A stretch of DNA of 64,000 nt. It comes from Pseudomonadota bacterium. Its GTDB lineage: Bacteria > Pseudomonadota > Gammaproteobacteria > Burkholderiales > Ferrovaceae. Below the pieces are notes generated by a model. The model was not told the origin of the DNA and did not search any database. It saw nothing but the letters and a program-made list of their open reading frames with translations. Location: positions 1 to 64,000 of the forward strand of contig JAKBBG010000002.1 of NCBI GenBank assembly GCA_021826025.1, written 5' to 3'. Shown here piece after piece: positions 36,328 through 64,000 of this stretch. A program made the translations under genes and the position numbers. Position 1 is the first letter of the stretch. Each line of letters begins with the position of its first letter.

Positions 36328-36339
36328 GCTGAGTCGCCC

Positions 36340-45974: not shown

Positions 45975-46003
45975 CTGGCCCGGCATGCACCCTACTGGGC
46001 CAG
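45975..46003. terminator. Possible weak terminator between convergent FAH and tadG genes
   Basis: Inverted repeat CTGGCCC (45975-45981) with GGGCCAG (45997-46003), partly inside the end of tadG. It is followed by TTTC only, so termination strength is doubtful. Confidence 0.25.
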
Positions 46004-47029: not shown

Positions 47030-47519
47030 AGTACATCACCGCCGTTGAAGTGAGTTGTTCGGTACCCTGGAGCGCGCTCAGGACGCCGAGCCCCAGACCC
47101 TGGTAGGAATAGTTGACCGTGACGCTGATGGTGCCGCCGCTGCCGCAGGTGACGCTCACGCTCGGATTGGTGGACGTGGCGTTCCCGAACGTGATGAGCG
47201 CCGAGGCGCCGTAGTTGCTCGCCACCAGGCAGGCATTGCCCGAGCCTGTGCCGGAGCAGGAGGCGGGGCTGCCTCCCTGGATGGTGGAAATGCCGGGGTC
47301 GGAACAGGAAATCGGATGGCTGAGGCTCACGGATTGCACAGACCCCCAACGCGCCCCCTCGCGTGCCGCGTTGGTGATGATGGCCTGGTCGTACATCATG
47401 ACGCCGAACTCAATGGTTCCGAACAGGATGAGCAGCAGCAGCGGCAGCACGAGCGCGAACTCGACGGCCACGCTGCCGTTTTCCCGGTGAAATATTTGTA
47501 TACGTCTCTTGACTTTCAT
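47022..47519 (-). CDS. tadE: TadE-like minor pseudopilin
   Basis: 165-residue protein with a class IV prepilin-like start: basic leader, then GSVAVEFALVLPLLLLILFG with the conserved Glu of TadE-type pseudopilins, and IEFGVMMYDQAIITNAAREGAR, the TadE signature. TadE and TadF-type minor pilins are needed for pilus assembly after cleavage by TadV. The ATG at 47519 gives the basic leader MKVKRR; an ATG 12 codons earlier (47555) is possible, and neither has a clear ribosome binding site. It is divergent from flp across 186 bases and translationally linked to tadG. Confidence 0.85.
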   Translation of the reverse strand: MKVKRRIQIFHRENGSVAVEFALVLPLLLLILFGTIEFGVMMYDQAIITNAAREGARWGSVQSVSLSHPISCSDPGISTIQGGSPASCSGTGSGNACLVASNYGASALITFGNATSTNPSVSVTCGSGGTISVTVNYSYQGLGLGVLSALQGTEQLTSTAVMYYE

Positions 47520-47705
47520 ATGGGAAATCGTAACATTCGTTTCTGTGCGCGACAAAGAAATTCTAATCCAGGCAATTTAAAAAATCTGTGTTGTTGCATG
47601 ATTTATATGCTATAAGTAGCCACAGGGTACTCTACTGGAACGCTTGTAAGATTAAGTCGTAACGGGGCGTACTCAAATTTCCGACAATTGAGGGAGGTTC
47701 TCATC
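47520..47705. promoter_or_regulatory. tadE-flp divergent region with extended -10 for flp
   Basis: An AT-rich 186-base gap, unlike its GC-rich surroundings. An extended -10 (TGCTATAAG, 47608-47616) points toward flp and would give a leader of roughly 84 bases; no good -35 accompanies it, so an activator may be needed. GGGAGG just upstream of 47698 is the flp ribosome binding site. No convincing minus-strand promoter is seen beyond a TAGAAT-like -10 near 47560. Confidence 0.4.
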
Positions 47706-47873
47706 ATGACTGCCGTCCAAAAAATCAAGCGTTTTTTCAAATCTGAAGAAGGTGTGACCGCCATCGAGTACGCCTTGATCGCAGCATTGATCGCAGCGGC
47801 CATCATCGGCGCCGTCACGCTGCTCGGCGGCAACGTCAGCAAAGAATTCTCGAGCATCGCGGGCGTCGTCTGA
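47706..47873 (+). CDS. flp: Flp type IVb major pilin
   Basis: Structural subunit of the Tad pilus, 55 residues. A basic 16-residue leader ends in EEG; TadV cleavage after that glycine would leave a 39-residue mature pilin VTAIEYALIAALIAAAIIG with the diagnostic Glu5-Tyr6 pair. The end carries an N-V-S sequon (mature residues 27-29) and further serines. The ATG was chosen because GGGAGG lies 9 bases upstream; a TTG 18 bases earlier overlaps the ribosome binding site. First gene of the plus-strand Tad operon. Confidence 0.96.
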   Translation: MTAVQKIKRFFKSEEGVTAIEYALIAALIAAAIIGAVTLLGGNVSKEFSSIAGVV

Positions 47874-47895: not shown

Positions 47896-48366
47896 TTGGA
47901 TTGCGTCGGAAACGCCGGGTGGTCGCAGGGAGTCCTGCTTGCGCTGGCTGCGCTCGCCGTTCACTTTGACCTGAAGGCGCGCAGGATTCCCAACCGGCTG
48001 CTGATTGCGGGCGGCGTCCTTTCGATCGTGCTGTCGCTCGCGACGCATTCGCCCCCGTTTCGGCAGTTGCTGGGCGGCGCATTGGTGGGGCTCGCGTTGT
48101 TCATGCCTTTCTACCTGATGGGCAGGATGGGGGCCGGCGATGTCAAGTTGATGGGGCTCGCAGGAGCGTTCCTGGGCACCCAGGGGGCCCTCGTCAGCGG
48201 CCTGCTCGCGATGCTGTCGGGCGGTGCCCTGGCCCTGTGGTTTCTGGCCTTCAGGCTCGGCAACAGGCTCCCCTACGCGGTCGCCATATTCTCCGGCGTG
48301 CTGGGCTACGTGCTGATCCGCTGTGACGGCGCGAACCTACTGAACTTTTCTTTCCAGGGTGTGTGA
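47896..48366 (+). CDS. tadV: Prepilin peptidase TadV/CpaA
   Basis: Short A24 aspartic prepilin peptidase that cleaves Flp and TadE-type precursors in the inner membrane. About 156 residues with several membrane segments, catalytic D25 in HFDLKARRIPN and D82 in GAGDVKLMG. It lacks the N-methylation domain of PilD, as usual for TadV. The start is probably TTG at 47896; no ATG is suitably placed and the ribosome binding site is weak. Stop lies just before the next gene's start. Confidence 0.88.
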   Translation: MDCVGNAGWSQGVLLALAALAVHFDLKARRIPNRLLIAGGVLSIVLSLATHSPPFRQLLGGALVGLALFMPFYLMGRMGAGDVKLMGLAGAFLGTQGALVSGLLAMLSGGALALWFLAFRLGNRLPYAVAIFSGVLGYVLIRCDGANLLNFSFQGV

Positions 48367-48368
48367 AC

Positions 48369-49181
48369 ATGGCTAAGCAACGTGCGCTCGTTCTGCTGCT
48401 CCTCTCCGTCCTCATCAGCGCATTGGCCATTTGGGGCGCCATGAAATGGATGAACCGGCAGGTGGAAAAGCGCAGCACCCGCCAGACGTTCAAAGTCGTG
48501 GTGGCTGCGGCCAACGTGGTTGCCGGTTCCCGCCTGACGCCGGAACTGATGCGCTCGGTCGACTGGCCCGCAGAAAATTCGCTGGCAGGAAGCTTTTCCG
48601 ATGCGCAGCCCCTGGTCAACCGGATTGCGGTCGTCACCCTGGGGGCAGGGGAGCCCATTCTGGAGCAGAAGCTCGCGCCGGTGGGCAGCAAGGCCGGCCT
48701 GTCCGCACTGATTGACCCGGGCATGCGCGCCGTCGCCGTTCGCGTCAACGACGTGGCCGGCGTTGCCGGCTTCGCGTTGCCGGGAAACCACGTGGACGTG
48801 ATGGTCAACATCCAGGACGATCAAGGGAAAATGGTTTCAAAAATCGTCCTGCAGCGCATCCTGGTGCTTGCCGTGGCCCAGGACGCTGCCGTGAAGGACG
48901 ACGTGAAAGCCAAGGTCGTGAACACCGTGACCCTGGAAGTCACGCCCCAGCAGGCGGAAGCCCTCGACCTGGCGCGCAGTGTCGGGAGCCTGAGCCTGAT
49001 CCTGAGAAATCAGGTGGACGAAAAAGCGGCTATCACGGCCGGCGTGAGAAAAGCCGATCTGCTGGGCGCACCGGAAGCGCCGCCATCACAGCCGCGCAGG
49101 CCCGCGGCGCCGCCGCGTCATTCGCAAAACAGCGTCGAAATCATTCGCGGCGCCTCGCACACAACAGCCAACATTCCCTGA
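48369..49181 (+). CDS. rcpC: RcpC/CpaB pilus assembly protein
   Basis: 270-residue periplasmic protein anchored by an N-terminal helix (about 5-25), with an SAF domain ([22 protein letters not shown], in two halves around 40-65) and the RcpC/CpaB core [28 protein letters not shown] near 115-140. It is thought to gate or brace the secretin. The ATG at 48369 was preferred over GTG at 48363 because AGGG is better spaced. A Pro/Arg-rich tail follows the core. Confidence 0.9.
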
Positions 49182-49188
49182 GCCCATC

Positions 49189-50496
49189 ATGAAAAAATTA
49201 TGCGCCTTACTGACCCTGGCAGCGGTTTTTTCGCAGCCTGCCTGGAGCATGGCAGAATCCGTCGCGCCGGACAAAACGGCCACGCTGCAGATGACCCTGG
49301 GCAAATCGACGCAGGTGGCTTCGGAAGCGCCCCTCGCCAGGATTTCCGTGGGCAATCCCGAAATCGTCGACGTCAGCCTTGTAAAGAACAGGGAACTGTT
49401 CCTGGTGGGCAAAAAGACCGGCAGCACCAACGTCTACCTGTGGACCCGCGACAACCACCTGACCCTGCTGGACGTGGTGGTCTCCATCGACACGGTGGGC
49501 CTGCGCGAAAAGCTCAAGGAACTCATGCCCGGTGAAACCTCGATCCGAGTGGGGTCGGCCGGCGAGTCGTTCGTGCTGAGCGGGCAGGTCGCCGATGCCG
49601 TGGCGGTCCGTCAGGCCGCCATGCTGGCGGAACAGTTCGGGGGGAAAAAAGTCATCAACCTGATGACCACCCGTGACCTGGCGCAGGTGCTGCTCGAAGT
49701 GAGGGTGGCGGAAGTGCAGAAATCCATCGACGACAAGATGGGGGCAGGCCCCAAAGTCGGCGGCTCGGGACGCCTTGGCAACAATCCGGCCCTGTTCCCG
49801 AACGGCGGCGGCACCAACCTGCAGTTTCTTTCCGGATCCACAGGGGTCATGAGCTTCACCGGCGGCGTCACCAACTTTTCCCTGGACGCCGAAATCAACG
49901 ACGGACGCGCCAAGATTCTGGCCGAACCCAATATCGTCGCCATCAGCGGCCAGGAGGCCTCGTTCCTGGCGGGCGGCAAACTCTATATCCCCGTGCCCCA
50001 GAGCACCGGATTCGGCGCGGCCACCATCACGCTGCAGGAAGAGGAATACGGCGTGGGCCTCAAATTCCTTCCGACCGTTCTGGATGGCGGGAAAATCAAC
50101 CTGCGCGTGACGCCGGAAGTGTCCGAGCTTTCCTCCACCGGAACCACATTCGGCACCGGCGCTTCCCTTACGGTCATTCCGACCATCACGACCCGGCGCG
50201 CTTCCACGACCGTGCAGCTCAACGACGGGCAGAGTTTCGCCATCGGCGGCCTGATCCAGAACAACGTGACGGAAGCCATCAAGGCATTCCCGGTCCTGGG
50301 CGAACTGCCGATCCTGGGAGCCCTTTTTCGCAGCAGCGAATTCCAGAACAACCGCACCGAACTGGTTTTCGTGATTACGCCGCACCTGGTCCAGCCTTCG
50401 AACAAAACTTTGCCGCTGCCGACAGACAACTTCGTGACACCGACCCGCCCGGAATTCCAGCTGGGTGGTAAGATGGAAGGGGAGCCTCGCCAATGA
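49189..50496 (+). CDS. rcpA: Tad secretin RcpA/CpaC
   Basis: Outer-membrane secretin through which the Flp pilus exits, 435 residues. Signal peptide about 1-22, BON/pilus-N-like domain ([26 protein letters not shown] cut near 36-62), then the type II/III secretin domain with [31 protein letters not shown] and the closing [16 protein letters not shown] with [11 protein letters not shown]. It ends with an ATGA overlap with a small lipoprotein gene. Confidence 0.94.
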
Positions 50497-50810
50497 ATAC
50501 CATCCGTTGTATCGCCCTGGTGGCGGCTTTGACGACGCTTGCGGGATGCGCGCCGCGCAGCTACCAGGAAGAACCCCAGTTCGGGGACGCAGTCCGGGAA
50601 AACCGGACGGTCCAGACCGTCAATCCGAAGGGCATTCCTCCCGCCGGACCGGTGGCGCTTGACGGGACTTCGGCCCGGGCCACCGTCGACCGCTACATCG
50701 GCACGTTCATCTCGCCACCCCCGCCGACCAACGCCTTTTCAATCGGCGTCGGCTCGGCGGGTTCGGCTCCCATGACCGTTCCGGCAGCCCTGGGAACCAG
50801 CCCGTACTGA
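50493..50810 (+). CDS. Small lipoprotein of the Tad locus, function unknown
   Basis: 105-residue protein with a signal peptide and lipobox LAGC (C near residue 19). The mature part is polar, Pro/Gly-rich and shows no domain I recognise. Its place between the secretin and tadZ, overlapping the secretin stop (ATGA), is where CpaD/RcpB-type lipoproteins occur in other Tad loci. It is half their size and I see no clear similarity. A pilotin or secretin-stabilising role is plausible but inferred. Confidence 0.75.
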
Positions 50811-50826
50811 GCATGACGGCCGATCG

Positions 50827-52005
50827 ATGAAGATATCCGTCATTTCAAGCGGCTCCAGGAAGGAACTCGCGGAAGTTCTCGAAGCGCATTGCCGCAACGA
50901 CCAGGTGACCCTGCTGGACCAGTCCTGCGAACGGGCGGACCTGGAAGCGGAAGCGGTGGCCGACGCCGACGTGCTGATCCTGGATTGCCAAACCCTGGAG
51001 CGCCTGGATTGGGCTGCGCTGGAGTCCTTCAACCTCAAGCACCCGTATTCCACAACCGCCCTGATCTGCAACGCCGATTACGAACGCGTGCTGGTGCAGG
51101 CCATGCGCGTGGGCGTGCGGGACGTGCTCAAGCACGCCGAAATTGCCGAACAGCTGCCGGCGGTCATCGAAAGGGCCCGGATACGCCTGGCCGCCTCGCT
51201 GGGAACGCGCGTCGCCGGAAAGATCCTGACGTTCATTCCCTGCAAGGGCGGAAGCGGCACGTCGTTCATTTCCAGCAACCTGGCCTACGTGCTGGGCGAA
51301 GTGCATAACCGGCGCGTACTCCTGATCGACCTCGACCTGCAGTTCGCCGACGCCTCCTTCTACATCACGGACGACGACAGCGGCCGTACCCTGGGCGACA
51401 TCGTGCGCCGCACCGACCTGGACGGTTCGCTGCTGGAATCCGCCTGCATCAAGGTGGGGAAGCGCTTCTGGCTGCTGCGTGCCCCGCAGACGCCGGAGCA
51501 ATCGGTCGGCATCACGCCCGACCAGGTGGACAATATCCTGTCGGTTGCGAGCATGCATTTCGACTACGTGTTCGTGGACCTGGAAAGGACCCTCGACCCC
51601 CTGTCCCTCAGGGCCATGGACCGTTCCGACTACATTTTCCCGATCATGCAGACCGTCTTGCCCTACGTGCGCGGCACCCAGCGCCTGCAGCGGACGTTTC
51701 GCGCCCTGCATTACCCGGACTCCAAGATCCGCCTGGTGGCCAACCGGCAAGGAAAATCCGACGACCTGCCGACTTCGAAAATCGAGGCGGCGCTGCAATC
51801 CAAGTTCTACATCCACCTGCCCAACGACTTCCAGAACGCCAATGCCTCCATCAATGCGGGCAAGCCCCTCTACGAAATCGCGCCGGGCGGGGTTCTGACC
51901 CGGGCCCTGATCGAATGGAGCAACCGGATCATCGGGATTCATGCGCCCGCATCCGGCGCCTCAGGCCGCTCCATCGGCCAGCGGCTGAAAACCCTGTTCG
52001 GATGA
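50827..52005 (+). CDS. tadZ: TadZ/CpaE pilus-localising ATPase
   Basis: 392-residue protein with an atypical receiver-like N-terminal domain (about 1-115, candidate acidic residue D53 in LILDCQ) and a MinD/ParA-like ATPase with deviant Walker A CKGGSGTSF (K140 onward) and LLIDLDLQFADASFY. TadZ places the Tad machine, often at a pole, and recruits TadA. The receiver lacks the full acidic cluster, so phosphorylation is doubtful. Starts 16 bases after the lipoprotein gene. Confidence 0.9.
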   Translation: MKISVISSGSRKELAEVLEAHCRNDQVTLLDQSCERADLEAEAVADADVLILDCQTLERLDWAALESFNLKHPYSTTALICNADYERVLVQAMRVGVRDVLKHAEIAEQLPAVIERARIRLAASLGTRVAGKILTFIPCKGGSGTSFISSNLAYVLGEVHNRRVLLIDLDLQFADASFYITDDDSGRTLGDIVRRTDLDGSLLESACIKVGKRFWLLRAPQTPEQSVGITPDQVDNILSVASMHFDYVFVDLERTLDPLSLRAMDRSDYIFPIMQTVLPYVRGTQRLQRTFRALHYPDSKIRLVANRQGKSDDLPTSKIEAALQSKFYIHLPNDFQNANASINAGKPLYEIAPGGVLTRALIEWSNRIIGIHAPASGASGRSIGQRLKTLFG

Positions 52006-52029: not shown

Positions 52030-53379
52030 ATGTCCCTGAGAGAACTTCTGAACACATCCGGCCCGGCACCGAACGTGCAGGCAAAGCCGATAACCGACGC
52101 CCAGCGGGTCGACGCCGAGACGATACGCCTCAAGTCCGAAATCCACCTGGAACTGCTGAAGAAGTTCGACCTGACCATGCTGGAGCGGATATCCGACGAA
52201 GAACTGCGCCAGCGGCTCGCGCTTTTCGTCGAAGAAACCATCCAGGAAAAAAAGCTGGGGTTGAGCGAAGCGCAGGGAAAAATCCTCATTTCCGCGATCC
52301 AGAACGAAGTGATGGGGCTGGGGCCGCTCGAACCGCTGCTGGCCGACAGCACCATTTCCGACATCCTGGTGAACGGCCCGCACACGGTGTACGTGGAGCG
52401 GCGCGGCAAGCTCGAGCTCACCGACGTGCACTTTACCGACGATGGCCATTTGCTGCGCATCATCGAAAAAATCGTCTCGCGCGTGGGGCGCCGGGTGGAT
52501 GAATCCAGCCCCATGGTGGATGCGCGCCTGCCGGACGGTTCCCGCGTCAACGCCATCATTTCCCCGCTGGCCCTCGACGGCCCGGCGCTTTCCATCCGGA
52601 AGTTTTCTGCTGTCCCCCTGAGCGTGGACAACATCATCGAGTACGGCTCGCTGACGCGGGACATGGCCTTCATGCTGTCGGCCATGGTCTCGGCAAAAAC
52701 GAACATGATCATTTCCGGCGGCACGGGCAGCGGCAAGACGACCATGCTCAACATCATGTCCGGCTTCATTCCCGACGACGAGCGCATCGTCACCATCGAA
52801 GACGCAGCCGAACTGCGGCTGCAGCAGCCTCATGTGGTCCGTCTTGAAACGCGCCCCCCCAACATCGAAGGCGAAGGCGAAATCAACCAGCGCGCACTCA
52901 TCAAGAACAGCCTGCGCATGCGTCCGGACCGCGTCATCGTGGGGGAGGTCCGGGGCGCGGAAGTGCTGGACATGCTTCAGGCCATGAACACGGGCCATGA
53001 AGGGTCGATGGCCACGATTCACGCCAATACGGCGCGCGACGCCCTGACCCGGCTGGAAAACATGGTGGGCATTTCCGGCCTCAACCTGCCCGTCCGGCCG
53101 TTGCGCCAGCAAATCGTGTCCGCGATCGCCGCCATCGTTCAGGTGTCGCGCCTGAGCGACGGCAAGCGGAAAGTCATGAGCATCCTTGAAATTACCGGCA
53201 TGGAAGGGGACATGATCACCACGCAGGAAATATTCAAGTTCCATCAAACCGGGGTGGCGTCGGACGGTACGGTCCAGGGCAGGTTCAGGGCCACCGGGAT
53301 CCGGCCCAAGTTTGCGGAAAAACTGGCGGCCAGGGGCGTCCCCCTGCCGGATTACCTGTTCGACCCGGACCGTTCCTGA
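52030..53379 (+). CDS. tadA: TadA/CpaF secretion ATPase
   Basis: Hexameric motor of the Tad pilus, 449 residues. N-terminal helical domain (about 30-95), then [21 protein letters not shown] split by the family turn, Walker [10 protein letters not shown] near 229-237, the Asp box [10 protein letters not shown], Walker B region [19 protein letters not shown] and the His box [12 protein letters not shown]. These are complete, so it should be active. Followed by tadB after 5 bases. Confidence 0.96.
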
Positions 53380-53384
53380 GCGCC

Positions 53385-54356
53385 ATGGACTTCTGGGGCT
53401 ACCTGATTCTCGTCGCGGGCTTCCTGGGCCTTTTCGGGCTCATCGAATCGTTGGTGCTGGTGTTGGGGGACCGGGAGAATTCGGAAAACAAACGCTTCAA
53501 GCGGCGCCTGCAAAGCCTGTCCAGCGAACTGCCCGACCGGGAGCCGGAACGGCTCAAGCGCGGCGCCTACAGCACGAACCCCAGGCTGGATGCTTTCCTC
53601 AAGCGCTATCACCAGCTGGACGGCATAGACCGCCTGCTGCGCCAGTCGGGAAAACCCTATTCCGTCGCCCAAATGCTGGCCGCGATGGCCGCCTGCGCAT
53701 TGCTGGGCCTGATCCTGCTCGTCGCTTCGGGAACCGCCCTGTATTTTGCCCCCCTGTTCCTCGTTGTTGCCGGCATGCTTCCGCTGCTGGCGCTTCGCAT
53801 GATCAGAAGCTCGCGCATGGGAAAAATCGAAACCCAGCTCCCGGATGCGCTGGATCTCCTGGGGCAATCCATGCGGGCAGGGCACGCCTTTTCCAGCGCG
53901 CTGCGGACGGTGGGCACCGAAGGGCCCGAACCGATTGCGACCGAATTCAGGATGACGTCGGACGAAATCAATTTCGGCGCCACGGTGCGGGAAGGCATTC
54001 TGAACCTGGCCAACCGGGTGGACAGCATGGACATGCGTTACTTCGCGCTGGCCGTGCTGATCCAGAACGAGACGGGCGGCAACCTGAGCAACCTGATGCT
54101 CGACCTGGCCAAGCTGATCCGCGAGCGGCTCAAGCTTCGCCGAACCGTGAAAGTCCTTGCGGCAGAAGGGCGCCTGTCGGGGTGGATCCTGGGATCCCTG
54201 CCCTTTTTCTTTGCCGGCATCATGATGCTGATCAATCCGGCCTACATCAGCTTCTTCTGGAAGGATCCTGAAAGCGTGCCCATCCTCAAGGTGATGCTGG
54301 TGCTGCTGGCCGTCGGGGTGATCTGGATACGACGGATCATCAATATCCGGGTTTAG
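53385..54356 (+). CDS. tadB: TadB inner-membrane platform protein
   Basis: 323-residue protein of the GspF/TadB type, with an N-terminal helix (about 5-27), a helix pair (about 98-140) and two C-terminal helices (about 262-320). The T2SSF domain shows LPDALDLLGQSMRAGHAFSSALRTVGTEG in two halves, typical of TadB. With TadC it forms the platform driven by TadA. Located between tadA and tadC at 5- and 10-base spacing. Confidence 0.92.
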   Translation: MDFWGYLILVAGFLGLFGLIESLVLVLGDRENSENKRFKRRLQSLSSELPDREPERLKRGAYSTNPRLDAFLKRYHQLDGIDRLLRQSGKPYSVAQMLAAMAACALLGLILLVASGTALYFAPLFLVVAGMLPLLALRMIRSSRMGKIETQLPDALDLLGQSMRAGHAFSSALRTVGTEGPEPIATEFRMTSDEINFGATVREGILNLANRVDSMDMRYFALAVLIQNETGGNLSNLMLDLAKLIRERLKLRRTVKVLAAEGRLSGWILGSLPFFFAGIMMLINPAYISFFWKDPESVPILKVMLVLLAVGVIWIRRIINIRV

Positions 54357-54366
54357 GGAGCGCGAG

Positions 54367-55338
54367 ATGCAATCCGTCACGTTGGTTGTCCTGCTGGTCG
54401 TTTGCGCGGCCGTGATCGTCGCCCTGGCCCTGTTTGTGATCGGCAGCATGTTCAAGCCTTCCGCCGTCCAGCGCCTGCATAAAATGGTCGAGGAGGAGCG
54501 CAAGGCCTACGGTGAGCAGGCGGAGCCGATGACCCAGGCCGGCAAGGCCTTGCGCGATCGCCTCAAGCCTCTGGCCAGGTTTTCAGCCCCCAAGGAACCC
54601 TGGGACGTTTCGCCCATTCGCCGCGAACTCATGGCTGCGGGGTATCGCAGCGAATCGGCCGGCCTGGTTTATCTGGGCCTCAAGACGCTGCTCACGTTCC
54701 TTTTCCCCATGCTGTTCCTGCTGATTTCAGGGTTCCTTCACTGGGAGCTGGCAACCCGGCAGACGGCTTTCGGGGTGCTGGTCGGTGCCGCCCTGGGGTA
54801 CATGCTGCCGAACGTGGTGCTGTCGTTCCTGGCATCCCGGCGGCGGCGGGAACTGTATGAAAACTTTCCCGACGCCCTGGACCTGATGCGCATCTGCGTG
54901 GAGGCCGGACTGGCCCTCGACGTGGCGATTGCCCGCGTGGGGGAGGAAATGCGCATCCGCAGCAAGGCGCTTTCCGACGAATTTCGCCTGGTCATGCTCG
55001 AGCAGCGTGCCGGTTCCACCCGCAACATGGCGCTCACCAATCTGGCCACGCGGGTCGGGATCCAGGACGTGGATTCCCTGGTGGCCACGCTGATCCAGGC
55101 CGACCGCTTCGGAACCAGCATTTCGGACTCGCTGCGGGTCCATTCGGAAACCCTGCGCCTGGGGCGCCGCCTGCGTGCCGAAGAGCAGGCCGCCAAGATC
55201 CCGACCAAGATCCTCCTGCCGCTCACCATGTGCATTTTTCCGCTGCTGTTCATCCTCATCCTGAGCCCGGCCATCGCGAACATCAAGCATTCGATGAAAG
55301 GCGAGTCCTCCCCGACCGAGACCCAGTCCTCGCCCTGA
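54367..55338 (+). CDS. tadC: TadC inner-membrane platform protein
   Basis: 323-residue partner of TadB with the same overall layout: N-terminal helix, central helices around 95-150 and a C-terminal pair. The core NFPDALDLMRICVEAGLALDVAIARVGEEM (split near 165-195) and SLVATLIQADRFGTSISDSLRVHSE match the TadC side of the GspF family. GGGAG precedes the ATG. The first glycosyltransferase gene begins 8 bases after its stop, so the operon continues. Confidence 0.92.
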   Translation: MQSVTLVVLLVVCAAVIVALALFVIGSMFKPSAVQRLHKMVEEERKAYGEQAEPMTQAGKALRDRLKPLARFSAPKEPWDVSPIRRELMAAGYRSESAGLVYLGLKTLLTFLFPMLFLLISGFLHWELATRQTAFGVLVGAALGYMLPNVVLSFLASRRRRELYENFPDALDLMRICVEAGLALDVAIARVGEEMRIRSKALSDEFRLVMLEQRAGSTRNMALTNLATRVGIQDVDSLVATLIQADRFGTSISDSLRVHSETLRLGRRLRAEEQAAKIPTKILLPLTMCIFPLLFILILSPAIANIKHSMKGESSPTETQSSP

Positions 55339-55346
55339 AAGGACGC

Positions 55347-56540
55347 ATGGGACCCGATCCGGAAAATCACTGGCTCGATCGAAGGCGGGTGTTGACCTAC
55401 AGTCTGGTCTTTGCCCTTGTCTTCCTGATCCTCACCATCGGGGTGGTTGCCCATTCCAACCTGGTCAAAAGCGACGGCGGCCCCCTCTGGTTCGATTTTG
55501 CCGTTTTCTGGAGCGCATCCAAGCTGTCGCTGCTGGGTCACCCGGGCGATGCCTATGATCTTTCCAGGCTTCATGCGGTGTTGCAGGGACTGCATCCGGA
55601 AATAAGGGAAGGTTCCTATGGCTGGTTTTATCCCCCGAGCTACCTGCTCCTGGTTTCACCGCTCGCCTTGCTACCCTTTATTCCTTCGTACCTGGTGTTC
55701 ATGGCCGTCAGCTTCACCGCCTATGCCTTCGTGGTGCGCCAAACCTGCCCGCGCCCTGAAACGCTGTGGGTGCTGATGGGGTTTTCCGGCGTATGGGACA
55801 GCTTCCTCACCGGACAGAACGGATTTCTGACGGCGGCCCTGGCCGGCGGGGCTTTGCTGGTCCTGGAAAAAAAGCCGCTCACCGCAGGTCTGCTGGCAGG
55901 CCTGCTGGCCATCAAACCCCAGCTCGCGCTCCTGTTCCCCGTCGCTTTTTTGGCATCGGGATCCTGGAAGGCGCTTCTGGGCATGGCGGCCAGCGCCCTC
56001 GCGTCCTTGCTCCTGTCGGCCTGGGTGTTGGGGTTCGGGACCTTGGCCTCGTGGGCGGACAGCCTGGGACTCGCCAAAAAATTCCTGGAGATTGGCGGAA
56101 CGGAATACTGGCTGCGGATGCCCACCGTGTTCTCGGCAGCCCATCTGGCCGGAATGCCGATACCCCTGTCCTACGCCCTTCAGTTGCTGGTGGCGTGCGG
56201 CGCTGCCGCCTGCGTGTGGACCGTCTGGCGCCACTGCGGGAGGCGGTCCCTGCGCAATGCGTCGCTGGTCGCTGGGTCCCTGCTGGTCAGTCCCTACGTA
56301 CAAATCTATGACCTGACCTGGCTCGCGCTGGCAGGTGCCTGGCTCATCCGCGATGCGATCGACTGGGGCTGGCTCCGCTATGAGCGGGAAGCCTTGCCCG
56401 CACTCTGGCTGCTTCCGGCCGCCATGCTGGCCATGGCGCGCATCGCCCCGTTCCAGATCGGACCCTGGGGACTCTTGCTGCTGCTGGCCATGCTCATGCG
56501 CAGGGCGAGCCTGGCCGGACGCGGGCATGGGTATGCGTGA
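55347..56540 (+). CDS. GT87/DUF2029 membrane glycosyltransferase, tandem copy 1
   Basis: 397-residue polytopic protein of the GT-C fold GT87 (DUF2029) family, which uses polyprenyl-phosphate sugars (for example mannose) as donors on the outer face of the membrane. After the first helix comes an acidic FDFAVFW, the presumed catalytic site. Then come YGWFYPPSYLL, TGQNGFLTAALAGG, AIKPQLALLFPVAFLA and SPYVQIYDLTWLAL, shared by all four copies. The N-terminus HWLDRRR is also common to copies 3 and 4. It starts 8 bases after tadC. Acceptor unknown; inferred link to the pilus only through the operon. Confidence 0.85.
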   Translation: MGPDPENHWLDRRRVLTYSLVFALVFLILTIGVVAHSNLVKSDGGPLWFDFAVFWSASKLSLLGHPGDAYDLSRLHAVLQGLHPEIREGSYGWFYPPSYLLLVSPLALLPFIPSYLVFMAVSFTAYAFVVRQTCPRPETLWVLMGFSGVWDSFLTGQNGFLTAALAGGALLVLEKKPLTAGLLAGLLAIKPQLALLFPVAFLASGSWKALLGMAASALASLLLSAWVLGFGTLASWADSLGLAKKFLEIGGTEYWLRMPTVFSAAHLAGMPIPLSYALQLLVACGAAACVWTVWRHCGRRSLRNASLVAGSLLVSPYVQIYDLTWLALAGAWLIRDAIDWGWLRYEREALPALWLLPAAMLAMARIAPFQIGPWGLLLLLAMLMRRASLAGRGHGYA

Positions 56541-57705
56541 CGACGCGCTTCTTACGCTGCCACGGCTCAGGGCTGCCGCCTTCCTGATGCTGACTTTCTT
56601 TCTGACCTTCGGTCTGGGTCTCGTCTGGTATTCCAACTTGCTGCACCCGCAGGGATACCTGATCTCGACGGACCAGATCGTGTTCTGGGAGGCATCCCGG
56701 CTCGCGCTGGAAGGACATGCGGCCCAGGCCTATGACCCGAAGGTCCTGATGAGTGCCGTCCAGGAAATCGACGCAAAAAAACACAACTTCGGGTGGTTTT
56801 ATCCTCCCAGTTTCCTTCTGCTGATCCTGCCCCTGGGCTTCTTCACCTATTACCAGGCTGCGGTGATCTTCATGACGACGACGCTGGGGATGTACGTGGC
56901 GGTCATGCAGAAGCTCTTGCGCGGAAAAGATGCGCTGTTTTTTTTGGCGTCATCTCCGGGGTTGTGGATCAACTTGTTGTTCGGCCAAAACGGGTTTTTG
57001 ACTGCAGGGCTTGCCGGCCTTGCGCTGCTCACGCTTGAACAGCGGCCGGTTGCCGCCGGCGTGTTCATCGGGCTTCTGTCCCTCAAACCTCATTTGGCGC
57101 TGTTGTTTCCCGTGGCGTTGCTCGCCCGGAAATCCTGGCGCACGCTCCTTGCGGCCGCGCTGACGGCGGCCATCCTGCTGGGCGTGAGCGCGGCAGCACT
57201 GGGTTTTGACACCATTCCTGCCTGGTGGCACAGCCTTCGCGCCGCCAGATCCATGCATCTGGAAAATCACGAACTTCCCACCATCATGGTGTCGGTGTTT
57301 TCGATGCTTCGCTGCATTGGGGTGCCGGTTGTCCCCGCTTATATCGTCCAGGCTCTGGCGGCAGTCTATGCTGTCCTGTCCGTATGGAAACTATGGCGCT
57401 CGACTGCTTCCCCCTTGCTTAAAAATGCGGCGTTGGTGACGGCGACCTTTTTGGTGAGCCCCTATCTTTATTGCTACGACCTGGCTGCGCTGTCGCTGGC
57501 CATCGCCTGGATGGCCAAGTTTTCCATGGAAGCAGGGTGGAAGCCGGGAGAGAAAGCAGTCCTGGCGCTGGCCTGGCTCATGCCCCTGGTTTCGTTCCTG
57601 GCGATCTGGGTCCACTGCCTTGCCCTGGTGCAGCTGACGATTCCGTTGCTTCTGGTCATGATCCTGCGCCGCGCGGGATTGAACGCGGCCTTGCGCTGGC
57701 GCTGA
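56527..57705 (+). CDS. GT87/DUF2029 membrane glycosyltransferase, tandem copy 2
   Basis: 392 residues from the ATG at 56527 (a second ATG is at 56533), overlapping the end of copy 1. It has STDQIVFW, FGWFYPPSFLL, FGQNGFLTAGLAGLAL, SLKPHLALLFPVALLA and SPYLYCYDLAALSL, parallel to the other copies. The N-terminus lacks the HWLxRxR motif, so this is the most divergent copy. Within the frame is a run of eight T (56938-56945), long enough to invite slippage. GT-C fold and family are clear; donor and acceptor are not. Confidence 0.83.
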   Translation: MGMRDDALLTLPRLRAAAFLMLTFFLTFGLGLVWYSNLLHPQGYLISTDQIVFWEASRLALEGHAAQAYDPKVLMSAVQEIDAKKHNFGWFYPPSFLLLILPLGFFTYYQAAVIFMTTTLGMYVAVMQKLLRGKDALFFLASSPGLWINLLFGQNGFLTAGLAGLALLTLEQRPVAAGVFIGLLSLKPHLALLFPVALLARKSWRTLLAAALTAAILLGVSAAALGFDTIPAWWHSLRAARSMHLENHELPTIMVSVFSMLRCIGVPVVPAYIVQALAAVYAVLSVWKLWRSTASPLLKNAALVTATFLVSPYLYCYDLAALSLAIAWMAKFSMEAGWKPGEKAVLALAWLMPLVSFLAIWVHCLALVQLTIPLLLVMILRRAGLNAALRWR

Positions 57706-57706
57706 A

Positions 57707-58894
57707 ATGCCATCACTCCTCCGCGTGGGCCGGCCCCATTGGCTGAACCGTTCGCGGGTGCGGGCATACGCAAAAACCACCCTGGTTCTATACCTGCTCG
57801 TTGCGGGAGCCTTTGTCCTGTATCGGTGGAAAAGCGCGGACCCCGGAAAGCTTTTCATCGCCTCCGACCTTGCCGTCTTCTGGATAGCGGGCGGCTTTGC
57901 CCGCGCGGGCCACGCCGCTCTGGCCTACGATCCGATCCGGATCCAGGCCGCCATGGCCCAATGGGCTCCCCAGATCCAGGGAGGGTACGGCTGGTTCTAC
58001 CCGCCGACGTTCCTGGTCGCGGTCCTGCCCATGGGGTATCTGTCGTACGCGGCAGCCTACCTCTCCTTCATGACGGCGACCGGCGCAGGCTATTTTTGGG
58101 TAGTGCGCACCCTGGCGCCCGAAGCCCCGGCCGGTTGGGCCCTGGCCGCTTTTCCGGGTCTGTGGATCAACGTCCTGACCGGGCAGAACGGGTTGCTCAC
58201 GGCGACCCTTGCCGCAGCCGCCCTGCAGGCGTATGAACGGCGTCCGCTGGTCGCCGGACTGGTCGCCGGGCTGCTGGTGATCAAACCCCATCTGGCCCTG
58301 CTTTTCCCGGTCGCCATGCTCGCGGCCAGGTCCTGGCAGGCCTTCCTAGGCGCTGCAATTTCCGCGGGTGCGCTGGTCGGCCTGGGCACGGCGGTCCTGG
58401 GCAGCGACACGTGGGCCGCATGGCAGCACGGCCTGGGCACGGCCCGCGCACTCATGGAAGCCGGTGGAACGGCCCCCATGATGCCAACGGCCTTTTCCTT
58501 CCTGCGACTGCTGCAGGCCCCGGTTTCGGCGGCTTATGCGGCCCAGGCCGCCTCGACTCTGGCGGCGATTGCGGCCGTCTGGCGGGTATGGCAGTCTGAG
58601 GCACCTTTTGCGCTCAAGGCGGCCACCCTGATGACGGCTTCGCTGCTGGCAACCCCGTACCTTTTCGAGTATGACCTGGCCTGGCTGGGTCCTGCCCTGG
58701 CCTGGGCCGCGCCCGTGGCACAGCGGCAGGGATGGCGGCGGGGCGAGCGGGAAATATTCCTTGCCGCATGGGCCCTGCCCATCCTGGCCGTGCTGGTCGC
58801 CGTGCTGGTCCGGGTGCAGGTCGGTCCCTGGGTGGTCGCGGCGCTGCTGGCTATGCTGGTCACGCGCGCCCTGGAAGGGAAGGGGGGGCGGTGA
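57707..58894 (+). CDS. GT87/DUF2029 membrane glycosyltransferase, tandem copy 3
   Basis: 395-residue copy beginning one base after copy 2. It contains HWLNRSRVRAY at 11-21, ASDLAVFW near 52-59, YGWFYPPTFLV, TGQNGLLTATLAAAAL, VIKPHLALLFPVAMLA and TPYLFEYDLAWLGP. Polytopic, with a positively charged C-terminus that contains a seven-G run (58882-58888), which also serves as the ribosome binding region of copy 4. Its stop overlaps the GTG start of copy 4. Confidence 0.84.
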   Translation: MPSLLRVGRPHWLNRSRVRAYAKTTLVLYLLVAGAFVLYRWKSADPGKLFIASDLAVFWIAGGFARAGHAALAYDPIRIQAAMAQWAPQIQGGYGWFYPPTFLVAVLPMGYLSYAAAYLSFMTATGAGYFWVVRTLAPEAPAGWALAAFPGLWINVLTGQNGLLTATLAAAALQAYERRPLVAGLVAGLLVIKPHLALLFPVAMLAARSWQAFLGAAISAGALVGLGTAVLGSDTWAAWQHGLGTARALMEAGGTAPMMPTAFSFLRLLQAPVSAAYAAQAASTLAAIAAVWRVWQSEAPFALKAATLMTASLLATPYLFEYDLAWLGPALAWAAPVAQRQGWRRGEREIFLAAWALPILAVLVAVLVRVQVGPWVVAALLAMLVTRALEGKGGR

Positions 58895-60102
58895 GACGGC
58901 ACTGGCTCAATCGGGCGCGCCTCCGGTTTTACAGCGGTGTCGCCCTGGCGATATTTCTGGCCATCGCTTTCGGGCTGGTCTGGTTTTCGGACCTGGTGGA
59001 TCCCAGTGGCTATACCATCATTTCCGATCTCACCGTGTTCTGGACTGCGGCGCAAATGGGACTGTCCGGACATGCTGTGGAAGCGTACCGCGTTGCCGAC
59101 CTGCGCGACCAGGTCCTTGCGATTTTCCCCAACGTTCAGGAGAGCTTCGGATGGTTCTACCCGCCCTCGTTCTATCTGTTCATTCTTCCGCTGGGATACC
59201 TCCCTTATGTTCCGGCTTATTTTGCGTTCATGCTTCCGACCCTGGCGTTTTATGTGTCGGTGGTCCGGCTCATTTTCTGGAATCGCGAAGCGGGCTGGGC
59301 CCTCGCGTCGTTTTCAGGCATCTGGATCAACCTGCTGCGCGGACAGAACGGCTTCCTGACGGCGGGACTGGCCGGCGCGGGCCTGACCCTGCTGGAGAAA
59401 AACCAGATCCTGGCCGGGCTTGTCATCGGCCTGACGACCATCAAGCCGCATCTGGCCGTCATGTTTCCTGTAGCGCTCGTCGCGGCCCGCGCATGGCGTG
59501 CGCTTGCCGCAGCTGCCGTTTCCGCAGCCGCCATTCTGGGTGCCGGCGTCGCGTACCTGGGAACGGACACGCTGTCGGCCTGGATCCACAGCCTGGCGGT
59601 GGCCAGCCGATTTTCAGAAACGAACGGTCCCGCATACTGGATTCACATGCCGACATTCTTCGCATTTTTCCGGCTTCTGGGCGCACCCGTCTCCCTGGCC
59701 TACGGGGTGCACGCAACGGTGGCCCTGGTGGCCGCAGCGGCAGTCTGGAACGTCTGGCGCAGCGATGCCGACCCGGCGCTCAAGGCGTCCATGCTGGTTT
59801 CCGGAACATTGCTCGTCAGCCCCTACCTGCTGGAATACGATCTGACCTGGCTCGCCCTGCCGGCCGCGTGGATGACAGCACTTGCCCGCCGCAGGGGGTG
59901 GGCTGCAGGGGAACGGGAGACCCTGGTGATGTTGTGGCTGCTGCCGGTTTCGTGCAGTCTCTGCGCAAAATGGACATCGTTGCAGATCGGCCCCTGGGGA
60001 CTGCTGCTGTTGCTTGGCATGCTTTGGCGAAAACACCGGAGAAGTCGCGGACAGCTGCATGCCCCTGTCCTGCATTGGTATTCTTCGGAGCCTAAGCGAT
60101 GA
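58891..60102 (+). CDS. GT87/DUF2029 membrane glycosyltransferase, tandem copy 4
   Basis: 403-residue copy with GTG start overlapping copy 3 (GTGA). It contains RRHWLNRARLRFY at 2-14, ISDLTVFW near 48-55, FGWFYPPSFYL, RGQNGFLTAGLAGAGL, TIKPHLAVMFPVALVA and SPYLLEYDLTWLAL. Copies 3 and 4 share the N-terminal motif and are probably the closest pair, though I could not align them in full. A basic tail of about 25 residues extends beyond the last helix. The stop overlaps the Sel1 gene (ATGA). Confidence 0.84.
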   Translation: MRRHWLNRARLRFYSGVALAIFLAIAFGLVWFSDLVDPSGYTIISDLTVFWTAAQMGLSGHAVEAYRVADLRDQVLAIFPNVQESFGWFYPPSFYLFILPLGYLPYVPAYFAFMLPTLAFYVSVVRLIFWNREAGWALASFSGIWINLLRGQNGFLTAGLAGAGLTLLEKNQILAGLVIGLTTIKPHLAVMFPVALVAARAWRALAAAAVSAAAILGAGVAYLGTDTLSAWIHSLAVASRFSETNGPAYWIHMPTFFAFFRLLGAPVSLAYGVHATVALVAAAAVWNVWRSDADPALKASMLVSGTLLVSPYLLEYDLTWLALPAAWMTALARRRGWAAGERETLVMLWLLPVSCSLCAKWTSLQIGPWGLLLLLGMLWRKHRRSRGQLHAPVLHWYSSEPKR

Positions 60103-61388
60103 AAGAGGTGCTTGGATGGCTGCTGGCCAGCCTTGTGGGAATTCAGGCCACCGTGGCGATTGCCGATGACGGGTCGATAGAACAGCTCAAGGCAAAGGCG
60201 GAACAGGGCAACCCGGAGGATTACCATCAAATCGAGCGCCGTGCTGCCGCAGGCGACAGCATGGCGCAGCTGACGCTGGCACTCATGCTGGAGGAGGGGC
60301 GCGGGGTGACCCAGAACCACGCCAAGGCCTTCGTCTGGATGCAAAAGGCTGCGCTGGCGGGAAACTCCACAGCCCAATTCAGGCTGGGGGAAATGTATGA
60401 ACTGGGGCAGGGGGTTGATGCCAGTGCAGAACAATCCCTGGCCTGGTATCGCAAGGCGGCCGACCAGGGAAACGCATCGGCCCAGTCCAAAATCGGAACC
60501 CTTTACGCCAAGGGCCGCGACGGCGTCCCCAAGGACTTGACCCTGGCAGCCGCCTGGTATGAAAAGGCCGCGTCGCAGGGTGACGTCTCCTCGGAATACA
60601 GGATGGGGGAGATTTACGAACAAGGCCTGGGCCGCCCAGCCAATCCGCCGCTCGCGCAGTACTGGTACCTTCAGGCGGCCAGGCAGGGGTTTGCCGACGC
60701 GCAAAACAACGTGGGCGTTCTCTATCAGAACGGCGAAGGCAAGATGCGGAACTACGATGAAGCGCTGCGCTGGTATCGTGCCGCGGCCAAGCAGGGCCAG
60801 AGCATGGCCCAAAAGAATCTCGGCGTTCTGTACGAATTCGGGGAAGGCGTGCCGCAGGACTATATGCAGGCCGTCTTCTGGTACCGGAAATCCGCCGAGG
60901 CGGGAAACCCGGTCGGTCAGTTCCGCCTTGGCCTCATGTACGCAAAAGGATTGGGCATACCGCAAAACGATGGGGAAGCCGCCGTCTTGTTCACCCAGGC
61001 CGCACAGCAGTACTATGCACCCGCCCAGGCCAACCTGGGCGCGCTGTTCGCCGCGGGCCAGGGAGTTTCCCAGGACCTCCAGCGGGCCATCGTCCTTTAC
61101 CGCATGGCGGCGGAACAGCGCGATGCGTTGGCGCTCAACAACCTCGCCGTGCTGTACTATCACGGGGAGGGCGTTCCAAAATCGCTCGTTGCCGCCTACG
61201 CGCTGTTCAACCTGTCGGCGGCGGCGGATCCCGGTGCAGACAATCGCGCGTCAAAAAACAGGGATGACCTGGCGAAGACGCTGAGCCTCGCAGAAAAAAA
61301 TGCGGCCGAAGCCCTCTCCCAGGAACTGCGAATACCCCATCATTTTCTCGACGCCCTCGACCGGATCAACGCATCCGCCACTCCCTGA
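60099..61388 (+). CDS. Secreted Sel1-repeat (TPR-like) protein
   Basis: 429-residue protein with a signal peptide (about 1-22, ending VAIA) followed by about nine Sel1-like repeats of 36 residues, for example GDSMAQLTLALMLEEGRGV, GNSTAQFRLGEMYELGQGV and GNPVGQFRLGLMYAKGLGI. Such solenoids scaffold protein complexes, here in the periplasm or outside. It is the last gene of the Tad gene train, translationally coupled to glycosyltransferase copy 4. No tadD (TPR lipoprotein) is seen in the locus, so it may fill that place; this is inference, and it lacks a lipobox. Confidence 0.85.
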   Translation: MKEVLGWLLASLVGIQATVAIADDGSIEQLKAKAEQGNPEDYHQIERRAAAGDSMAQLTLALMLEEGRGVTQNHAKAFVWMQKAALAGNSTAQFRLGEMYELGQGVDASAEQSLAWYRKAADQGNASAQSKIGTLYAKGRDGVPKDLTLAAAWYEKAASQGDVSSEYRMGEIYEQGLGRPANPPLAQYWYLQAARQGFADAQNNVGVLYQNGEGKMRNYDEALRWYRAAAKQGQSMAQKNLGVLYEFGEGVPQDYMQAVFWYRKSAEAGNPVGQFRLGLMYAKGLGIPQNDGEAAVLFTQAAQQYYAPAQANLGALFAAGQGVSQDLQRAIVLYRMAAEQRDALALNNLAVLYYHGEGVPKSLVAAYALFNLSAAADPGADNRASKNRDDLAKTLSLAEKNAAEALSQELRIPHHFLDALDRINASATP

Positions 61389-61568
61389 TCCACCCGGAAC
61401 AAACCGCCCACTATTGCGTTTTCGTGACGCGAGCATTCACGCTATACGGTGAATTGGCGAGGTTTTCCCTTCATATTCGGCCTTTAGATTCGTTGACCAG
61501 CGAAAAGGCACGCTATACATTCGATCACAAGCAAGCGATGTGAAAAACCATTGGCCGGAGGTGCGTCT
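61389..61568 (+). promoter_or_regulatory. higA upstream region with promoter and direct repeat
   Basis: 180 bases without a gene. A likely promoter is TTGACC (61493-61498), 17 bases, TACATT (61516-61521), giving a leader of about 41 bases. The 10-base sequence CACGCTATAC occurs at 61438-61447 and again at 61509-61518, the second inside the promoter, as expected of an autoregulator site. No HigB-type toxin frame is present. Confidence 0.45.
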
Positions 61569-61880
61569 ATGTCCAAAACGAGTATCCCCCAACATCCCGG
61601 AGAAATGCTCCGGGACAGGATTTTGCCGGCCCTGGGGCTGACGGTAACCCAGGCGGCGTCCCAGCTTGGTGTGACGCGCGCCGCCTTGTCGCGCGTGCTT
61701 AACGGCAGAGCCGCCATTTCACCTGAGATGGCACTGCGTCTGGAAAAGTGGCTGGAAAGAGTGCGCGGGACCCGCGCCGACCTGTGGATCGCGGAACAGG
61801 CTTCCTACGATCTGTGGCAGGCACGTCGCAAGTTCAAACCCAAAGTGAAAGTGGCCAATGCCATGAAACTGGCGGCTTAA
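61569..61880 (+). CDS. higA: HigA-family antitoxin-type regulator, no toxin partner seen
   Basis: 103-residue XRE-type helix-turn-helix protein of the HigA/VapI family: HPGEMLRDRILPALGLTVTQAA (split at residue 18), LGVTRAALSRVLNGRAAISPEMALRLEKW as the helix-turn-helix and dimer part, and the terminal SYDLWQARRK typical of HigA. GGAGGTG lies 6 bases upstream of the ATG; an earlier ATG at 61551 has no such site. HigA is normally preceded by HigB, which is absent, so it may be a free-standing repressor. Confidence 0.88.
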   Translation: MSKTSIPQHPGEMLRDRILPALGLTVTQAASQLGVTRAALSRVLNGRAAISPEMALRLEKWLERVRGTRADLWIAEQASYDLWQARRKFKPKVKVANAMKLAA

Positions 61881-61958: not shown

Positions 61959-62852
61959 ATGGAACTCATTTCGGATACAAAAACGCTGTTGGACACAAAA
62001 TATTCTCAGCTCAAGACGTCGTTCAATGCGGAGCACGGCGTGCTCTGGACGCAGCTCGACCAGGACGACATCCCGTGCGTCACGGAAAAGCTGCTGCACG
62101 AACTCCAGCAGCACCAGGACGCCATCGAGAACAGCGGCGGAAAGGTCTGGATCGACGGCCAAATGCATGACATCCGCTATGCGGTCCTGTCTTCCCTGAA
62201 ACCCGGGATCTTCAATCTGGGCGGCCAGCTTTCCCTTTTCCGGGATCTGATCCGCAGCAAGAACAGGGCCGCCCTGATGCACTACGGGACGGAATGCATC
62301 AATGTCCAATTCCCGCGACTCAACCGCTTTTACCTGCCGATCACGACCATCGGCCTCGTGCAGGGCGATGCCCTGGGCGGCGGCTTTGAAGGGGTCCTGG
62401 TATGCGACGTGATCGTCGCGGAAAAGGGCTGCCAGATGGGCTTTCCGGAAATCCTCTTCAACCTGTTTCCGGGCATGGGCGCATACAACGTGCTCGCCAG
62501 GAAGGTCGGATCGGCCCTGGCTGAGAAAATGCTGCTCAGCGGTAAGATGTACACGGCCGAAGAACTCCACGAAATGGGCGTCGTCGATGTCCTGGCCGAA
62601 CCTGGAAAGGGCGTCGATGCCGTCTACGAGTACGTTCGCAAATCGGAACGTCGTGCCAACGGTTTCAGGGCCGTGCAGCAGGTGCGCCAGCGCTGCAACC
62701 AGATCACCTACGAAGAGCTCATGGACGTGATCCGGATCTGGGTGGACTCAGCCCTGCGCCTGACCGAAAGGGATCTCAAGGTGATGGACCGCTTCGTGCG
62801 TTCGCAGGAAAAGGCGTTCCTGCAGTGCCAGCAGGAATACCTTATTGCGTAG
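61959..62852 (+). CDS. rpfF: DSF (diffusible signal factor) synthase RpfF-like
   Basis: 297-residue crotonase-fold enzyme that dehydrates and cleaves 3-hydroxyacyl-ACP to release cis-2-unsaturated fatty acid signals. The RpfF hallmark GDALGGGFEGVLVCDVIVAE carries E144; MGFPEILFNLFPGMGAY carries E164. These correspond to the two catalytic glutamates (141 and 161) known in Xanthomonas RpfF. Length and termini match RpfF rather than a beta-oxidation enoyl-CoA hydratase. It converges on a hybrid sensor kinase gene with an 11-base overlap, the same orientation as rpfF-rpfC in Xanthomonas. Confidence 0.9.
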   Translation: MELISDTKTLLDTKYSQLKTSFNAEHGVLWTQLDQDDIPCVTEKLLHELQQHQDAIENSGGKVWIDGQMHDIRYAVLSSLKPGIFNLGGQLSLFRDLIRSKNRAALMHYGTECINVQFPRLNRFYLPITTIGLVQGDALGGGFEGVLVCDVIVAEKGCQMGFPEILFNLFPGMGAYNVLARKVGSALAEKMLLSGKMYTAEELHEMGVVDVLAEPGKGVDAVYEYVRKSERRANGFRAVQQVRQRCNQITYEELMDVIRIWVDSALRLTERDLKVMDRFVRSQEKAFLQCQQEYLIA

Positions 62853-64000
62853 TCGACGGGAAGGCGGAGCTTTCTCCGGGATTGCCCAGGTATTTTGTCA
62901 GCGCTTCCTGCGTTTTTTTGAAGAGGCTTTTTGCTTCGGCCAGAAGGGCGGGGGATTTTTCGGGCAATTCCTTCAGGTCCAGCTGCATGATGTCCCGACA
63001 GACCAGGTGCAGGGATTCGGCGCCGATGTTCCCGGCGCTGCCCTTGATGGTGTGTGCCAATTCCCTGAACGCTTGAAAATCGTTTCGGGACAAGGCCGAT
63101 TTCATCGCTTCCAGCAGCTTTTCCGTCTCGGATATGAATCCGTGAATGACGATGGGCATGAAGTCTTCCTGGCCTTCGCCCAGCATTTCCAGGTGCCGTA
63201 GCGTCGATTCCTTCACGAGCGGTGCAACAGCCGCTTCACGGCTGATGGCGGTTCCTTCGAAACCGATGTCCACCCCCTTCGATTCCGTGGAAGTCAGTCT
63301 GCTGATCGATTCCAGCAGCGTGACCGCATCCACCGGCTTGCTCATGTAGGCATCCGCCCCGGCTTCCTCGCATTCGCGCATCGCTTCCGTGGTCGCGTTG
63401 GCTGTCAGCACGATGACGGGGGTCTGCGGAGACTGGCGCGATGTTGCGCGGTGTATTTTCAGCACGTCAAGCCCCCCCAGCAGCGGCATGTTCATGTCGA
63501 GAATGATGAGGTCGTAGCGCTGTGATTCCAGCCGGTCCAGGGCTTCCTCCCCGTTTTCGGCCAGGTCGACGCGGTGGCCGCCGTATTCGAGGATTTTGGA
63601 AATGATCTTTCGGCTGGTTCCGTTGTCTTCGGCGAGCAGGATGGAGATGCCTGTCTTTTCGAGGGCGCTGCGCTGGTAATGCTCCTTGAACGAAATGACG
63701 CCCTGCTGCGGCTGCGGCGTCATGATGCCGTGCAGCGCGTTGAACAGCAACGTCTTGTCCACGGGGGTATGCAGAAGGCAGGAATAGCCCATTTTCAGCA
63801 GGGCCTTTTCATCGTAATACTGCCTGTCGGTGGCCACCCAAATCGCCGACACCTCGCGTGACGGGCAAATGGCGTGCACCCGGTTGATGAATTCTTCCGC
63901 TTCCATGCCCAGGTTTTTGGGAGCGCACAGAAGGATGGTGTTGTGCTGTTTGTCCGCGGGGATTTGCTCGAGCCGCGAAAAAAAGTGGGGAATGGAAATC
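62842..64000 (-). CDS. RpfC-like hybrid sensor kinase, C-terminal receiver and HPt part (5' end outside window)
   Basis: 385 residues are visible and the frame stays open to the window edge, so the gene starts beyond it. Order: a receiver-like region without a clear phospho-acceptor (visible part to about 110 residues in), a full receiver with ILLAEDN and the phospho-acceptor in LIILDMNMPLLGG plus the conserved SKPVD lysine, and a C-terminal histidine phosphotransfer domain with ELAHTIKGSAGNIGAESL. This is the tail of an RpfC-type DSF sensor, which also binds RpfF through its receiver. The sensor and kinase domains are not visible, so RpfC is inferred from domain order and neighbour. Confidence 0.82.
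   Translation of the reverse strand, partial: ISIPHFFSRLEQIPADKQHNTILLCAPKNLGMEAEEFINRVHAICPSREVSAIWVATDRQYYDEKALLKMGYSCLLHTPVDKTLLFNALHGIMTPQPQQGVISFKEHYQRSALEKTGISILLAEDNGTSRKIISKILEYGGHRVDLAENGEEALDRLESQRYDLIILDMNMPLLGGLDVLKIHRATSRQSPQTPVIVLTANATTEAMRECEEAGADAYMSKPVDAVTLLESISRLTSTESKGVDIGFEGTAISREAAVAPLVKESTLRHLEMLGEGQEDFMPIVIHGFISETEKLLEAMKSALSRNDFQAFRELAHTIKGSAGNIGAESLHLVCRDIMQLDLKELPEKSPALLAEAKSLFKKTQEALTKYLGNPGESSAFPSTTQ

Follow-up and report, generated by a model that had tools for sequence, protein, structure and literature searches.

Why should a pilus operon run directly into a set of glycosyltransferase genes? The question is raised by a 64,000-nucleotide stretch of DNA (hereafter the window, meaning the whole stretch analyzed; contig JAKBBG010000002.1, positions 1 to 64,000) from a bacterium of the Ferrovaceae, whose relatives are betaproteobacterial iron oxidizers of acid mines. 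From flp, starting at 47706, to the end of a Sel1-repeat gene at 61388, every gene of its Tad pilus operon and extension lies on the + strand; neighboring genes are separated by no more than 24 bp or overlap by 4-8 bp. Four tandem genes of family GT87 (55347-60102) begin 8 bp after the end of tadC (54367-55338). The original prediction, made by a model from the sequence, had placed these genes correctly; the single strand and the small gaps that it described are borne out, and its 4-bp overlaps hold for part of the run, the first two GT87 genes overlapping by 8 bp. A terminator scan found no terminator-like site at the junction of tadC and the first GT87 gene, such sites being no commoner in the window than in shuffled sequence. 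The genome (1.74 Mb, 93% complete) carries four GT87 genes in total, all at this locus. As argued below, we consider it somewhat probable (roughly 0.58) that GtrA, GtrB and the GT87 proteins form a module that acts in the periplasm to glycosylate the Tad pilus, similar in action to TfpW.

The arrangement is conserved well beyond the window. All GT87 matches were compared with all TadC matches in 32 Ferrovaceae genomes and the loci were then read. GT87 is the next gene after tadC, on the same strand, in 17/17 uncut loci (those not interrupted by a contig end) whose tadC is at least 50% identical to that of the window, the window included; the distance in the 16 other loci runs from an overlap up to 15 bp. 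The link spans five genera, down to ~51% tadC identity. Among loci with a divergent tadC (<45%), GT87 is found on the contig in 0/13, including a further Tad-like locus in the window genome (L067, contig C76, 778-4515) with divergent tadA and tadC. At the genome level, GT87 and this Tad type occur together in 15 of the 32 genomes and are jointly absent from 15, the two discordant cases (G002 and G016) having contigs that end at the junction; Fisher's exact test for joint presence and absence gives 9e-7, a figure that ignores kinship and is descriptive only, and the locus-level Fisher test used 16/16, with the window excluded. In G005, where a contig breaks off at tadB, GT87 was not detected. 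GT87 is lacking in nearly all single representatives of the other families of the order. GT87 sets lying mostly apart from Tad genes in relatives, the outcome that the original prediction had named as speaking against it, were looked for, and this is not the pattern in Ferrovaceae. An oddity of this one locus or an accident of assembly is ruled out, since the arrangement is present in many separate assemblies. These observations support a physical tie of the GT87 genes to the Tad operon across the Ferrovaceae.

The four GT87 proteins (390-403 aa) are encoded at 55347-56540 (copy 1, PF09594 E 1e-39), 56533-57705 (copy 2, E 3e-39), 57707-58894 (copy 3, E 4e-36) and, from a GTG start, 58891-60102 (copy 4, E 3e-41), all on the + strand. 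All score 125-142 bits against PF09594, for which the curated cut-off is 25, and copies 2-4 share 38-45% identity with copy 1. The motifs first quoted for them (xDxxVFW, GWFYPPS/T, GQNGxLTA, xKPxLAxxFPVA and PYxxxYDL) were found in every copy. A sequence search of the PDB with a profile of the four copies gave no match, and folds therefore had to be compared. An AlphaFold2 model of copy 4 (pLDDT 94, from a 40-sequence alignment) was closest to PimE (9dm5; Foldseek E 7e-7, Z 29.0, rmsd 3.7 over 356 residues), followed by ALG6 (Z 20.5), a GPI mannosyltransferase and ALG3. The modelled structure thus supports, at the level of fold, a kinship between the GT87 proteins and a polyprenyl-phosphate-sugar transferase, the class originally assigned to them. 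D46, Q152 and K185 (copy 4 numbering) are invariant in 40 homologs, and in PimE D58 serves as the catalytic base and activity also depends on Q163 and K195 (PMC12041525). The near-constant offsets of 12, 11 and 10 make it likely that the two sets correspond, an assignment that rests on sequence offsets and not on residue-level superposition. By this correspondence, all four copies retain the predicted positions of the catalytic Asp, in the first periplasmic loop, and of the Gln and Lys that would contact the donor phosphate. By homology to PimE, the active site likely faces the periplasm and the predicted donor is a polyprenyl-phosphate sugar.

A GT87 tree, built by a quick method with SH-aLRT support only, groups the copies largely by position. 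Copy 1 clusters with the gene that directly follows tadC in G004, G011, G021 and G009. Copy 3 forms a group with genes of G002, G004 and G011, and copy 2 is the long-branched sister of that group. Copy 4 clusters with the final copy in each of G002, G004, G011 and G021, and second copies of other genera join it more loosely. The set thus consists of old, divergent paralogs kept in order rather than of products of a recent tandem amplification. Their conserved positions fit distinct, non-redundant roles.

The same association recurs in a second family. A tblastn search against plasmids led to Burkholderia pyrrocinia, where three flp genes and a tad operon are divergent from a GT87-GT87-GT2-GtrA cluster. 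We then examined one ~20 kb GT87 region per genome, taken at the top match or at another of those listed, for 60 of 99 positive Burkholderiaceae genomes, a convenience sample rather than a random one. Core Tad genes are present in 43/60 regions and gtrB in 53/60; all 43 Tad-bearing regions hold gtrB, ~1.1-1.4 kb from a GT87 gene, and these gtrB products are 54-60% identical to GtrB of the window genome. With 2-3 TadA genes per 7 Mb genome, we estimate the chance of a Tad locus within ~10 kb at roughly 1-2%. The layout differs among regions: some, such as L159, have tad genes, GT87 and gtrB all in the same orientation, and in others, such as L162 and L168, flp and the GT87-gtrB block point away from each other. 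The tie between Tad and GT87, together with the donor genes gtrB and gtrA, is thus supported in Burkholderiaceae as well, and the original statement that no standard Tad locus is known with this extension was too strong, Tad-linked GT87 being common in this family. GT87 beside Tad as a phylum-wide rule was rejected: in the phylum sample, GT87 lies within 15 kb of TadA only in G395 (Burkholderiaceae), G156 and G359. No Tad genes were recognized near the GT87 matches of Propionibacteriaceae and Rhodospirillales that were inspected (L080, L086 and L088).

In the window genome, the candidate donor genes lie away from the Tad locus, on C6. The only gtrA (PF04138) is found at 36541-36900, and a GtrB-type GT2 gene (PF00535) at 35470-36414 is divergent from it, the two matches being 127 bp apart. 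The best NCBIfam match of this GtrB is PgfS (E 8e-85, under the family cut-off). The divergent gtrA/gtrB pair is present in 15/16 GT87-positive Ferrovaceae, and GtrB and GtrA would be a plausible source of the GT87 donor in this family.

Taken together, gene order and its conservation, the fold, the active-site positions, the presence of donor genes and, in Burkholderiaceae, the coupling of these genes to GT87 and Tad form the observed basis of a model for Tad pilus glycosylation. Cytoplasmic GtrB would charge polyprenyl phosphate with a sugar, and GtrA would help to flip the charged lipid to the periplasmic face. There the four GT87 enzymes encoded at the end of the tad operon would take the sugar, with the Asp of loop 1 acting as base, and transfer it to pilus subunits held in the inner membrane prior to assembly. 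The most likely acceptor would be Flp (47706-47873, +; PF04964 E 1e-15); TadE (47022-47555, -; PF07811 E 1e-19), a minor pilin-like protein, and a TadG-like protein (45992-47029, -; PF13400 and PF09977), encoded immediately upstream of flp in the opposite orientation, are further candidates. The copies may differ in target site or add successive sugars. The use of GtrB and GtrA as donor source in Ferrovaceae, the sugar, the acceptor (Flp, TadE/TadG or a glycan made alongside) and the division of labor among the copies are parts of the model that we infer. Pilus proteins would be the most economical acceptor because it is pilus genes, rather than genes for polymer export, that the GT87 genes follow, because Flp1 of Aggregatibacter actinomycetemcomitans is reported to be glycosylated (PMC6182317, citing Inoue 2000), and because TfpW, which glycosylates the type IV pilin of Pseudomonas aeruginosa and protects the cells from pilus phages (PMC11841053), is a transferase encoded beside its pilin gene. 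Transferase genes are likewise co-located with pilin genes here, as in a TfpW-like pilin glycosylation cassette. A more specific version, in which GtrA, GtrB and one to four GT87 enzymes form a dedicated and hitherto unreported system of Ferrovaceae and Burkholderiaceae that builds a glycan stepwise on periplasmic pilus subunits, the number of GT87 copies determining how long the glycan is or how it is patterned, is put forward tentatively, at somewhat less than even odds.

Several points weigh against a pilus-directed module. Its support is genomic and structural rather than biochemical. The N-V-S sequon of Flp, to which the original prediction had pointed, exists in the window genome and was rejected as the target, since close relatives with the same GT87 genes have NVG, GIS, DVS or NVQ there. 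Ten of the 60 Burkholderiaceae regions, including all six of one genus (g64), hold a GtrB-GT87 pair with no recognized Tad genes nearby, and across the other families of the phylum GT87 genes mostly lie away from Tad. Because the g64 pairs lack Tad, the pair is not Tad-bound everywhere and can serve something else. Such Tad-free pairs favor the main competing explanation, in which the GT87 enzymes make a surface glycan or glycolipid (slime, an adhesive polymer or a lipid-linked glycan) that aids Tad-mediated attachment, the genes being co-transcribed for regulation only and the pilus proteins left unmodified. Ferrovum is noted for copious slime, which also counts in its favor. PimE, the best-studied GT87 enzyme, works on a lipid-linked glycan (PMC12041525). 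However, the operon contains no polysaccharide polymerase, flippase or export genes, none were seen in the clusters of relatives, and the Tad link recurs in two families; we regard this explanation as doubtful, if worth serious attention.

The donor genes, too, weigh against the pilus-directed module, and they allow for another alternative. In Ferrovaceae, gtrB and gtrA are also present in six GT87-negative genomes, so GtrB holds only partly as a strict GT87 partner, and three PMT_2 proteins of the window genome could draw on the same donor. The GT87 enzymes might use a donor not made by GtrB, such as a polyprenyl-phosphate pentose, with many different periplasmic proteins as acceptors and Tad components as only one target among them; the FAD oxidoreductase and the large uncharacterized protein that adjoin GT87 genes in one Ferrovaceae genus (g2) would be in keeping with this. 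Against it, gtrB adjoins GT87 in 53/60 Burkholderiaceae regions and loci of the divergent tadC type are without GT87, which leaves the proposal improbable. Finally, the GT87 genes could be passengers that were inserted after tadC by chance and inherited vertically, with no functional tie to the pilus, and shared ancestry does make the counts within the family non-independent. This is very unlikely given that the link is kept over five genera to ~51% tadC identity, that the copies have intact active-site residues, that GT87 and this Tad type are present or absent together, and that the link recurs in Burkholderiaceae in other arrangements. Glycosylation of the Tad pilus is thus the reading that we prefer.

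The proposed module shares elements with several known systems. PimE, a polyprenyl-phosphate mannosyltransferase of Mycobacterium, has the same fold over almost the whole chain and corresponding Asp, Gln and Lys positions; its acceptor is phosphatidylinositol mannoside, whereas the GT87 genes here are tied to a pilus operon, and identity is ~17%. The Gtr system of phages and Shigella combines GtrA and GtrB with an acceptor-specific membrane transferase that modifies O-antigen. Homologs of GtrA and GtrB are common to both, but the third component here is GT87 and the cluster partner is Tad. TfpW, the group IV pilin arabinosyltransferase, is likewise a membrane transferase encoded with its pilin; it acts as one enzyme on type IVa pili with a D-Araf donor, in contrast to the tandem set described here, and the two are likened by context and not by sequence kinship. 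Among known Tad loci, RcpC was formerly implicated in pilus glycosylation and has now been shown to form an alignment complex (PMC12307814). In the Tad-pilus literature that we found, no glycosyltransferases are described in the locus and no transferase is named for Tad pili; nor did our search, which covered mostly open literature so that an earlier mention is possible, find a description of Tad-linked GT87/DUF2029 proteins. The Tad-linked GT87 proteins and their donor genes are concrete candidate enzymes for Tad glycosylation, including in culturable Burkholderiaceae, and are directly testable. Pilus sugars can change phage binding and adhesion, and in Ferrovaceae they might help attachment filaments to remain stable at low pH.

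The remainder of the Tad locus is complete, with Flp, TadV, RcpA, TadZ, TadA, TadB/TadC and TadE/TadG all found. Genes for TadV, CpaB/RcpC, RcpA, a small protein in the CpaD position and TadZ occupy 47896-52005 (+), followed by tadA, tadB and tadC (52030-55338, +). Flp, TadE, TadG, TadZ, TadB and TadC were assigned from Pfam/NCBIfam matches (T2SSF for TadB and TadC), and the others from sequence, gene order and conserved synteny with annotated Tad loci, across which tadA is conserved. Every component of a Tad/Flp locus (flp, tadV, cpaB, rcpA, tadZ, tadA, tadB, tadC, tadE and tadG) is thus present, and the locus differs from the known one by its GT87 extension. The last gene of the run (60099-61388, +) encodes a protein with nine Sel1 repeats (PF08238), and a Sel1 gene at this position recurs only in G002 (L065) among the loci of relatives. 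In G006 (L053, 105-2302), tadE has beside it a tandem pair of tadG-like genes that share 57-59% identity with TadG of the window.

Downstream of tadC, Ferrovaceae loci vary from one to four co-directional GT87 genes, and some genomes add a copy on the opposite strand. In genus g2 (L057:10249-13815, L061:786-4159 and L062:10867-14383), the proteins adjoining the GT87 set are a FAD amine-oxidase-like protein and one of 625-669 aa that has no Pfam match and may be a further membrane transferase. G021 has a 703-aa PTPS_related/YfhO-like membrane protein after its GT87 pair (L045:5-2113, -). In the Burkholderiaceae genus g64, the Tad-free GT87-gtrB pairs of L184 and L195 are flanked by a sulfate/citrate symporter-family gene on one side and a penicillin-amidase gene on the other.

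Scans for Rfam families and tRNA genes returned nothing in the window. Genes for an RpfF-type DSF synthase (61959-62852) and a receiver-Hpt protein similar to RpfC (62842-63906) adjoin the Tad-GT87 cluster. The rpfF gene is kept beside the cluster in six other Ferrovaceae genomes (L046, L050, L052, L053, L056 and L065), some of which add a histidine kinase and HD-domain regulators (RpfC/RpfG-like), an adjacency that links diffusible-signal quorum sensing to Tad pili. Between the Sel1 gene and rpfF lies a HigA-like helix-turn-helix gene (~61550-61880, +) with no toxin partner visible, and a similar gene is found in L046 (9016-9456).

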